A stretch of DNA of 64,000 nt from Norana najaformis (Eukaryota > Annelida > Clitellata > Crassiclitellata > Hormogastridae): the NCBI GenBank assembly GCA_964023275.1, contig OZ029929.1, positions 868,001 to 932,000 of the forward strand, written 5' to 3'. Numbering within the stretch: the first letter of the stretch is position 1; the number at the start of each line of letters is the position of its first letter. A program made the position numbers and the translations under genes. Shown one piece after another: positions 5,665 through 8,010 of this stretch. The notes beneath the pieces are model-generated. The model was given only the letters and a program-made list of their open reading frames with translations, had not been told where the DNA came from and did no database searches.

Positions 5665-6281
5665 TCACTTCTCCGTTGCCCCAGACACGGTTATCATGAC
5701 ATTTCCCGGCAGCTCCTTCACCTTCGTCGTCAAGTCGTCAAAGTTCTTCGGAAACACCGACTGTTGTTCCGATGCTTCGTCTGGGTTTCCGTCACCCATA
5801 TCATCCGGGGATTTCTTCTTCCGTCCTAGACGACCTTCGAGACCCGGATCTTCCTTCGGAACCTCTTTCTTCAGGATGCCATACTTATCACGAATGCCCT
5901 GCCGCATGACCTCTCGCTCCTCTTCCATCTTGCGGTATTTATCGTTGCGTTTTTCCTCCGCTTCAGCGATTTCTGGATCCTCCTCCTCATCTCCATCGCC
6001 CTTCTTCTCCTCCTTCTCTTCTTTGTCTCCACCCGGGGCACCTGAAGGCTGGTGAATGCTGGGAGGTTGAATGTCATCTGAGAACATCGGAGGCTTTAAC
6101 GCCTTTGGAGTTATGTAACTATCGTCATCATCGCTTTCATCGTAGCCATCTTTTCCAGTGACAGGAAAAGAGCCAGCTTTTTTCATAACTGCGGGAGAGC
6201 GATCTGCATTTCTACCAGGAAGCACGTTCGCAACGTTAATGTAGTCTGGACAGTTTCGACGGTGTGGATCGGACGAACATC

Positions 6282-6282
<1 letters not shown>
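5665..6282 (-). CDS. Complexin-like coding region, in frame with an upstream retroelement ORF
   Basis: Complexins are small neuronal proteins that clamp or promote SNARE-driven vesicle fusion through a central helix bound to the SNARE bundle. Here positions 5979-5866 encode the central helix, with the run RKMEEEREVMRQGIRDKYGI, the hallmark of the family. Ahead of it is an acidic/Lys-rich accessory segment (APGGDKEEKEEKK), and after it a basic linker and a C-terminus ending in NFDDLTTKVKELPG, a plausible amphipathic membrane-binding helix. The stop is at 5665-5667. The helix and the C-terminal half are continuous, although animal complexin genes often carry an intron near the DKYGI block (family knowledge, from memory). 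This suggests a processed copy. The frame stays open upstream of the complexin part (DESDDDDSYITPKALKPP) to the target-site duplication at 6261-6283. A possible acceptor (ccttcag at 6048-6042) would also fit a normal exon starting at 6041, so a genuine complexin exon is the main alternative. Confidence 0.7.
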
Positions 6283-6324
<42 letters not shown>

Positions 6325-6608
6325 CCACGAAAACATAGTCCGCCATCTTGATCCAGGGCCATTCCAGAATATCAGAATGTTGTTATTATTATTGTTGTTG
6401 TTGCTGGAACAACTAGAGAAGCTGTGGCGTCCAGGCTGGCACACTGGAAACAGGTCGACCAGCTGCACCTCCGAATCTCGTGATCTTGTCTGTAAGCGCC
6501 GTGGTGAAGAAGCAACCCTGAGTTAGCGGTCGCGTAAGTGTAGAGCGTTCCGTTGGCGTTTCTTCGATGGAGCGCAAGAACTTCCGGTGTGGATCGGACG
6601 AACATCCA
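6261..6608 (-). mobile_element. 302-bp retroposon 'X' with 23-bp target-site duplication
   Basis: The 23-bp sequence starting ggtgtggatcggacgaac is present at 6261-6283 and again at 6586-6608. Between them is a 302-bp insert whose plus-strand left end is an (ATT)n run, meaning an (AAT)n tail in minus orientation. The core from aaaacatagtccgccat to tctcgtgatctt recurs at 9246-9405. The structure is that of a non-LTR or SINE-like insertion. It adds 325 bp net, shifts the host frame by one, and introduces a stop at 6413. Confidence 0.8.
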
Positions 6609-7246
6609 GCACCACCAACTCCCTCCTCTTCTTCGCCGTCGTCGTCTGCTTCGAAGGCGCCTGCGTCGTGGGCTTCACTGACCCGAGCGTCGACGTCTCC
6701 TCGACCTCGACCCGCCGGCTGACCTTCGACAGGCGGTGCGGCTCCTTGACCCAGAGGATCGGTTGGGGCCCGTCGGCTGGGTCTCGACGACCAGTTCCAG
6801 GTTCTCTCCCCCTCCCTAATCTTGGCTTCAGGCACGCCCTTCTCTCCTTCTTTGATTTCAGCCGTCTTGTTTTTCGTTGTATTGTTGTCGATGAAGAACT
6901 TGATTTTCGACTGGGTACTCTCGCTCGCTGCGTCGAGTGCGAGTTCTGAGATCATGAATTCGTCTGATTGCTTCTTCTGAACTAAATCCTTCAGATAACG
7001 CTCGTCTTTTCTCCTGTTAACCATTGTAAATGTTTTGTCATAGCTGGAGTCAATCGCTTCTTCTTCCATCGATGGAAGGTCGCGCGGAGACAACTGTTCC
7101 CGGTCAGGTGGAAGACAAGGGAAATTATGAGGGAGCGAAGAAGCATGGTCTGAATGGGTAGAATGTCTGTCGCACTGATCTGAGGCTGTCTTCCGGCCGG
7201 TGATTGCTCTCTGGAATTGCCAGTCTTCGCTTAAATCTGGCTCCAA
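6609..7246 (-). CDS. Linker region of the chimeric ORF, about 212 codons, unknown
   Basis: This stretch stays open in the same frame as the retroelement C-terminus at 7247-7885 and, after removing the 325-bp insertion, in the same frame as the complexin part. It begins after the NAIAFNGTF motif and includes a charged segment (RKDERYLKDLVQKKQSDEF), a Lys/Asn-rich piece (IDNNTTKNKTAEIKEGEKG), then Arg/Pro/Gly-rich and acidic runs. I recognise no domain. An open frame of this length is unlikely by chance, so it was coding recently. One other frame is also open from about 6830 downward, so a frameshift inside it is possible. Confidence 0.5.
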
Positions 7247-8010
7247 GAATGTGCCATTAAAGGCAATCGCGTTAGATCGCTGGATGGCAATGGAGAGGCG
7301 TTGGAACAGGAAAGAAGTCTCCCTCCTGTCTCCCGATACTTGGGTTAAATGGCGACCGATTTTCTTGATGAGGCTAAAGCCTTCCCGATTTATGGGGCCT
7401 AGAGTCTCGAAGGCCAGAGGGACGAAGCAGTGTGTCGAGAGAATATCACTGTATTTTGAGGTCTTTCGTTCTGCTGCGATCTCAGCAGCAGCACCTGCGA
7501 CCACGGCTGTTCTGGATCGATAAGAGACTGCCAGAGTATCGATTACTGTGGCGTCCCAGGTCAAGCATTTACCCCCTTCCCAAGGAATGAGGGTTGCTCC
7601 ATCAGGTCGTCGGCCGTCGGACCTAACCAATCCTGCTGGTTCTTTAGTTGATGGAAAGCCAGCCTTCACGAGGGCGCGCCACACGATGTCATTGATACAG
7701 GCGTGTCTTGCTGTTCTCCCTGGGCCTAAAGGGCATGCTAGACCGTGCGAGCCGTCCGCATTGACCAGAAACTCGCAGGGGCAAACGTGAGGGGCGCACA
7801 AGTCTATCCCAAGTCTTAGGCCTGTTGCGATGCGTACAGCCTCATCGTCTAGCCTCAAGCCGCAGGCACTTATGGGCAGGGCCAAAAGCCAGTCGCCAGA
7901 GTGTGGGGAAGAAACTGCCTTAAATCTGGCTTCGTGGTACTCGGATGTTATTGAGGCTCTGAGGGTTGCCAGACTCTTTTGGATAAGTGGGCGGTTACGT
8001 GAAGAGGGGG
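7247..8010 (-). pseudogene. Retroelement ORF, C-terminal part
   Basis: The minus-strand frame reads SPHSGDWLLALPISACGLRL (from about 7915), a cysteine cluster CAPHVCPCEF with a following [56 protein letters not shown] FETLGPINREG and RRETSFLFQRLSIAIQ. This is the C-terminal end of a reverse-transcriptase polyprotein family that I know from many invertebrate genomes, with a CCHC-like cysteine block. Other copies lie at 2012-2557 and 39232-39520. The frame is intact from 7885 and probably from about 8010. No reverse transcriptase catalytic block (YxDD-type) is present upstream. Confidence 0.75.

Follow-up and report, generated by a model that had tools for sequence, protein, structure and literature searches.

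Two neighbouring copies of one retroelement lie on the minus strand of the DNA analysed here, a stretch of 64,000 nucleotides (nt) from the annelid Norana najaformis (GCA_964023275.1, contig OZ029929.1, forward-strand positions 868,001 to 932,000), called the window below and numbered from its first letter. The first, copy A (6284-9218), is a plain retroelement ending in (TAA)n, and the second, copy B (5539-6283), is a separate, 5'-truncated copy directly behind it, in which the 3' end of the element is replaced by exons of two host genes, a complexin and a gene here called gene X. Copy A has an N-terminal frame (7948-8880), a C-terminal frame (6413-8077) and a (TAA)n tail (6284-6323), while its reverse transcriptase (RT) region has been removed by an internal deletion at about 7995. 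The C-terminal frame, open from 8077 to the stop at 6413, comprises the C-terminal domain of the element (7247-7885; ratio of non-synonymous to synonymous polymorphism, pN/pS, 0.44 in frame among 8 copies) and the C-terminal tail of the plain open reading frame (ORF) (6413-7246, TAG at 6413-6415). Of 8 copies compared, counting the one in the window, 5 have this stop, and L004, L005 and L007 read Tyr instead. Copy B begins with 23 nt of element body (6261-6283), followed by exon A (6150-6260) and exon B (6042-6149) of gene X, a complexin exon encoding the accessory and SNARE-binding central helices (5884-6041), a second complexin exon (5763-5883), a third up to an internal donor (5667-5762), which ends in ATEK and the T of TGA, and an alternative last exon of the host complexin (5572-5666), which gives the stop and the 3' end without a CAAX box; a (TAA)n tail closes the copy (5539-5571). 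The exon boundaries of copy B were checked directly and give lengths of 111, 108, 158, 121, 96 and 95 nt, the 158-nt exon being 12 nt short of the 170-nt host exon on contig 8 owing to a 12-nt deletion in copy B.

The first-pass annotation had read this region as one chimeric frame, in which a retroelement C-terminus, a 212-codon linker and an intron-less complexin were continuous once a 325-bp later insertion was discounted. Its components are real: the complexin with its central helix matches Synaphin (PF05835, E=7.1e-25) in the minus-strand frame that stops at 5665, the C-terminal frame of the retroelement has the open extent given above, and the computed offset places both in the same frame modulo 3 once the 325 bp are set aside. 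The open frame was also correctly judged unlikely by chance, as 7246-6607 was open in only 3 of 4000 and 6281-6042 in 378 of 20000 dinucleotide shuffles, so that it needed a cause. The insertion, on the other hand, does not exist. A 24-bp direct repeat stands at 6260-6283 and 6585-6608, with a spacing of 325 bp, and a search of the genome with 5665-7885 (148 rows; best 40 of 1247 candidates scored) found 39 other copies, at 91-96% identity, that run unbroken across the first 24-mer, 25 of them from query base 1. Seven other loci were fetched, and in 6 of them identical element sequence continues after the first 24-mer, with a variant in L005. Since other copies continue through the 24-mer, the 325 bp are the normal 3' end of copy A, most of them lying in the C-terminal tail. 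A later insertion with a 24-bp target duplication was thus rejected, the internal 24-mer being element body in other copies, and the second 24-mer consists of the first 23 nt of the element body of copy B and the first base of exon A. There is accordingly no continuous frame in the window, and the frames of the two copies agree because both come from one family whose fusion is in frame. The linker is open, as described, although it is made of the element's own C-terminal tail and of two exons of a second host gene that had been missed. Strong codon periodicity at 6748-6607 prompted the idea of coding in another frame, which was set aside on aligning element copies (pN/pS over 6925-6607 of 0.56 and 0.54 in the second and first frame, respectively). 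Among the rows scored in this search complexin was reached by the window alone; the complexin-bearing copies found later were outside those scored.

A 3'-end fragment of a further copy (9219-9404, minus strand), 96% identical over 137 nt to the 3' end of copy A, precedes copy A, and element units stand head to tail in locus L002. Tandem or template-jump insertions may be common in this element.

Parent genes of the captured exons

The minus-strand frame 5665-6522 matches Synaphin with 88.4 bits (cut-off 27) over profile positions 22-141, and there are also matches to solved complexins among the PDB sequences (complexin-1, 5w5c, E=1.9e-9). The N-terminal domain, before profile position 22, is not encoded in the captured complexin, and exon B of gene X precedes the match. 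A protein search of the genome, in which all 64 candidates were scored (54 rows), took the captured segment as query and led to a host gene on contig 8, with exons in order at 33029309-33029494, 33031232-33031357 and 33031934-33032029; its alternative last exon, at 33033335, is 100% identical to the 3' end of the element. The three exons are flanked by canonical splice sites (slashes mark exon ends) reading TGCAG/GTGCCC...GATAAG/GTCAGA, TTGCAG/TATGGC...CACAAC/GTATGT and GCCAG/AGTCGG...GAGAAGT/GTAGTC, and the alternative last exon has the acceptor TATAG/GATTCGG. The acceptor suggested in the first pass at 6041 is partly right, since the host complexin exon starts precisely at this base; in the element, however, that exon is already joined to foreign exons. 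As judged from its splice sites, the host gene would allow two protein ends, ...ATEKCSLQ with a CAAX box or, through the donor GAGAAGT/GTAGTC, ...ATEK; the element complexin ends in ATEK without a CAAX box, the host CSLQ belonging to the other end. Complexin exon 1 was looked for in the window with a crude pattern, and in the 7.9 kb that precede the contig 8 exon, and was found in neither.

A further candidate host exon, at position 31628446 of contig 8, was rejected as a 5'-truncated element copy. Additional complexin-like exons that stop at the host exon boundary were seen on contigs 1, 5, 14 and 15 (L038, L040, L041, L042, L044 and L046), and the host complexin family itself seems large. 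No relatives of complexin or of the C-terminal domain of the element were found among viral contigs.

The segment before the complexin derives from gene X on contig 2, with exons at 7847230-7847337 and 7848204-7848329. Its exon A is bounded by TTCTTAG/GTCGAA...AAAAG/GTCTGT and its exon B by CTGTAG/ATGCC...CTTCAG/GTAGGA, while exon C has the acceptor TATAG/GTCATTAA. The tail of gene X (L047, L052) contains the tyrosine motifs DYINV and SYITP, which we take to resemble the tails of signalling receptors, and a paralogous exon lies at position 7859983 of contig 2.

Dispersed copies and stages of capture

A Synaphin profile search of the assembly (608,420,607 bases, 17 contigs) gave 30 matches, compared with none in 14 control genomes. 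Nineteen of the 30 cover most of the domain in one frame; they lie on eleven contigs, and 4 contain a stop. In eight loci that were read, element, linker and complexin shared one frame in several, and no frame was found in L015. These matches and loci overturned the notion that complexin is mere host sequence beside an element. All 19 loci were then fetched with about 6 kb upstream and the pieces of the window mapped onto each: at least 30 bp of element body is joined to captured exons in 9 of the 18 other long-flank complexin loci, so that multiple copies contain both parts, and a gene captured by a retroelement, the first of the alternatives offered in the first pass, is borne out by dispersed copies. 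At least 280 bp of element body is present in 7 of the 18, of which four (L020, L022, L024 and L028) keep a single frame open all the way from the element through the complexin and three (L021, L027 and L029) have an interrupted frame. Counted from the 54-row protein search, complexin-bearing copies occupy 28 places; this count leaves out host exons and paralogues, rows with gene X only, second rows of one copy, the weak row at position 20080333 of contig 6, and a match at position 43232163 of contig 2 (76% identity, without the 3' end of the element). A search with the 3' exon gave at least 41 rows, one of them host (best 40 of 44 candidates scored). The copies are young, 20 of them diverging by 0.27-2.17% from their majority sequence, with gaps of 24 nt in L029 and L033, 1 nt in L018 and 2 nt in L032, and 3-nt insertions in the captured parts of L019 and L021.

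Four nested stages can be read in this one genome. Plain elements with a long linker form the first, and plain elements with a short linker, which lack 363 nt (121 codons) of it, form the second; with the element part of L027 as query (47 rows; best 40 of 960 candidates scored), at least 29 other places cover query 15-1749 at 94-95%, and all 6 fetched short-linker copies run on as plain element up to a (TAA)n end. The third stage carries exons A and B of gene X followed by exon C, without complexin: B is joined to C at 5 places, three of which were read (7 rows in the exon B-C search, including one host exon C and one host paralogue). The complexin-bearing copies form the fourth. Six fixed differences from gene X are shared without exception by the lettered complexin copies, with 10 to 15 rows at each site, and by the lettered intermediates, with 2 or 3 rows, and two fixed differences separate the elements from the host complexin (20 and 19 rows). 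Because the six differences are common to intermediates and complexin copies, capture was serial, and its order was plain element, then gene X exons, then complexin.

Element type and insertion sites

RVT_1 was matched in 2 of 3 plain-copy frames scanned (E=1.9e-11 and 4.5e-13), and three chains named R2 are the best of five PDB matches to the RT of the element (E=1.6e-5 to 3.8e-4). The C-terminal domain at 7247-7885 had no Pfam or PDB sequence match, and its predicted structure was unusable (mean predicted local distance difference test score, pLDDT, 40), so that, by its motif, it is a putative restriction-endonuclease-like domain. The 5' starts vary between copies, which share a common 3' end with three end variants. 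The 40 bp just upstream are TAA-rich in 14 of 20 copies, against 795 of 20000 random 40-mers of the window, and (TAA)3 or longer follows within 330 nt of the complexin stop in 20 of 20 copies, against 158 of 5000 random 330-mers. A TAA target is known from the Dong element. One copy (L028) carries an inverted 5' piece of 128 bp at 98.4%, a feature linked to target-primed insertion. The element is a non-LTR (long terminal repeat) retrotransposon, probably of the group encoding a restriction-like endonuclease (RLE). The RLE-encoding, repeat-targeting elements include the CRE, R2, R4, NeSL and HERO clades, a group that repeat-targeted insertion fits; the present element is like them in its R2-matching RT and (TAA)n-adjacent copies and differs in its captured host exons (PMC4640811).

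A second, related element family is represented at 2128-2303 of the window by a 68.5% DNA match, on the opposite strand, to the C-terminal domain. Relatives at 62-63% also stand beside the complexin copy in L022, and in L051 the intermediate is followed by an element of similar appearance.

Other features of the window

A 476-bp tandem repeat spans 2481-4177 (3.6 copies at 99%). Just downstream of copy B, an 87-bp tandem repeat (4654-5484) is open on both strands, with a plus-strand frame of 276 codons made of NGLWNINGQGGQPPANAVGNLNGQGQRPQ-like units. The plus-strand frame 33861-34355 matches the CUB domain weakly, with E=0.0016 and 19.1 bits against a cut-off of 21.4.

Discussion

In this study, the anatomy of the copies, their exon boundaries and copy number, the nested stages and the intact frames in some copies were observed directly, and they lead us to propose, with a probability of roughly 0.85, that a non-LTR retrotransposon exchanged its 3' end for spliced host exons on two occasions, in serial captures, and was then amplified in frame. 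First, exons A, B and C of gene X would have been added to an element of the short-linker subfamily; one of its descendants would later have used the end of exon B (CAG/GT...) as a donor and been joined to the complexin exons of contig 8, this second join ending in the alternative last exon without a CAAX box. Each chimeric RNA would have been reverse transcribed into new sites and amplified, and since the protein frame stayed open, the ORF of the element ends in a complexin without its N-terminal exon. The joining itself was putatively achieved when read-through transcripts were spliced. As GT are the first two bases of exon C, the intermediate carries CAG/GTCATT, a plausible candidate donor for the second step. 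The TAA-rich 3' ends may have let a host-derived 3' end work in retrotransposition, and complexin copies were probably moved by the proteins of plain copies.

Several observations weigh against this proposal. The plain element reads GGAAGT where a donor would be needed (GGAAAT in 1 of 6), and the one-base variant that would make the donor GTAAGT has 0 occurrences in the genome, searched as an exact 17-base pattern. A search of the 5.9 kb upstream of gene X and the 7.9 kb preceding the complexin exon found no element; the sole matches in these stretches and in the gene X intron are of 48 and 67 bp at 83-84%, and the donor insertions are therefore not seen. Six of 20 copies (L026, L027, L028, L032, L034 and L035) have no TAA-rich 5' flank. 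No complete RT was found on a complexin-bearing element in any of the 19 fetched loci, the longest such copy, L027, starting at the YLDD region with a partial, sub-threshold RVT_1 match (E=0.097). Finally, no sign of purifying selection on the complexin was found in the 20 copies compared.

The lack of a visible donor insertion, or of a splice donor in the plain element, would also suit switching of the RT between element RNA and host mRNAs, as would the location of gene X and complexin on different contigs. Each join to foreign RNA is placed at an exon end, however: the element meets exon A at its acceptor, and exon B meets complexin at both donor and acceptor. Both joins thus coincide precisely with the start of a host exon, the second in addition with the end of exon B, whereas template switching is not expected to respect exon ends, and we regard it as improbable in place of read-through splicing.

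The use made of the captured complexin is a separate matter. Selection for the spread of the element could maintain a functional fusion of RT, endonuclease and complexin, or else a truncated complexin on its own; such use would fit the frame preserved through every junction, the four open frames among the 7 longer copies and the capture of an isoform without the CAAX box. Yet single-copy changes in the complexin part comprise 15 at 81.3 synonymous sites and 45 at 302.7 non-synonymous sites (ratio 0.81), while shared changes number 2 synonymous and 5 non-synonymous and fixed differences from the host 1 and 1; of the 20 copies, 4 contain a stop and another 2 (L018 and L032) a gap that breaks the frame, and no complete RT was seen linked to complexin. 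Synonymous and non-synonymous changes in the gene X part, intermediates included, were 5 and 23 in single copies, 2 and 1 shared and 1 and 5 fixed, and the C-terminal domain gave a pN/pS of 0.44 in plain copies (n=8) against 0.78 in complexin copies holding the domain (n=4). Because the copies are so young, this test of selection is weak. We take a neutral passenger as the default, and selected use by the element seems doubtful. It is likewise unlikely, though worth stating, that the fusion, or its RNA or PIWI-interacting RNAs (piRNAs), acts on the host SNARE machinery or on complexin expression; if true, a retrotransposon would have acquired a synaptic fusion regulator as a working part.

Uptake in one step of a host transcript in which gene X and complexin had been trans-spliced, or fused by host rearrangement, would account for the exon-exact junction between exon B and complexin. 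It is nevertheless very improbable, as B is joined to C without complexin at five places and the three aligned intermediates share all six gene X differences with the complexin copies, so that A and B were in the element first. A normal complexin gene of the host whose intron contains a retroelement, in keeping with a Pfam match that starts at profile 22 and with 6041 as a true host exon start, is refuted for practical purposes by the intron-bearing parent on contig 8 and the dispersed copies, the window holding three complexin exons fused without introns, with a (TAA)n end, at one of 28 dispersed places.

Serial splice capture, the reading preferred here, has relatives among known systems. 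Moran in 1999 and Pickeral in 2000 reportedly described exon shuffling and 3' transduction by L1, in which 3' flanking sequence is carried along by read-through. To our knowledge, serial capture founding a multi-copy, in-frame fusion family differs from both. Splice capture by retrotransposons is itself already known: SVA_F1 (MAST2 exon 1) and chimpanzee pt_SVA_D6 (STK40 exon 1) are splice-captured subfamilies of 84 and 94 copies, and, as proposed for the present element, they are non-LTR subfamilies founded by host-exon splicing and then amplified (PMC6139936). For pt_SVA_D6, as for our first join, reconstruction of the splice site within the element was not possible, whereas the SVA cases are 5' captures of first exons by non-autonomous primate elements (PMC6139936). 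In the present element 3' coding exons continue an ORF of the LINE (long interspersed nuclear element) type, in two steps and from two genes. As in the SVA_F1 kind, the captured part is bounded by host exon ends in many copies; the source insertion and the splice site of the first join are not visible, and for the second join there is a candidate site with no insertion near the contig 8 gene. A LINE that took a piece of a host gene at its 3' end, and whose source insertion is likewise no longer seen, is TART-A of Drosophila, in which the nxf2 piece lies in the 3' untranslated region and is proposed to make piRNAs, the route of capture being left open by its authors (PMC7785250); the spliced exons described here continue the ORF instead. 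The two ends of the host complexin are paralleled by the C-terminal isoforms Cpx7A and Cpx7B of Drosophila described in a preprint (PMC10312600), since the host gene would likewise have a CAAX (CSLQ) and a non-CAAX form through alternative 3' ends, while the element has the non-CAAX end only and lacks the first exon. As far as the literature searched shows, two successive captures from unlinked genes, the in-frame extension of a LINE-type ORF and the complexin cargo are new; no report of a complexin carried by a retroelement was found in that literature, subscription journals lying mostly outside the search.

Exon shuffling by retrotransposition would here be caught in successive, still-readable stages, with every form from the plain precursor through the intermediate to the final one, as well as the two parent genes, present in one assembly: one LINE-type lineage would have taken exons from two unlinked host genes, kept its reading frame and amplified the result. 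A caution follows, as copies of a retroelement can be mistaken for 'expanded complexin families' when genes are counted in such genomes. It also becomes possible to test whether a SNARE regulator is of benefit to the mobile element that carries it.

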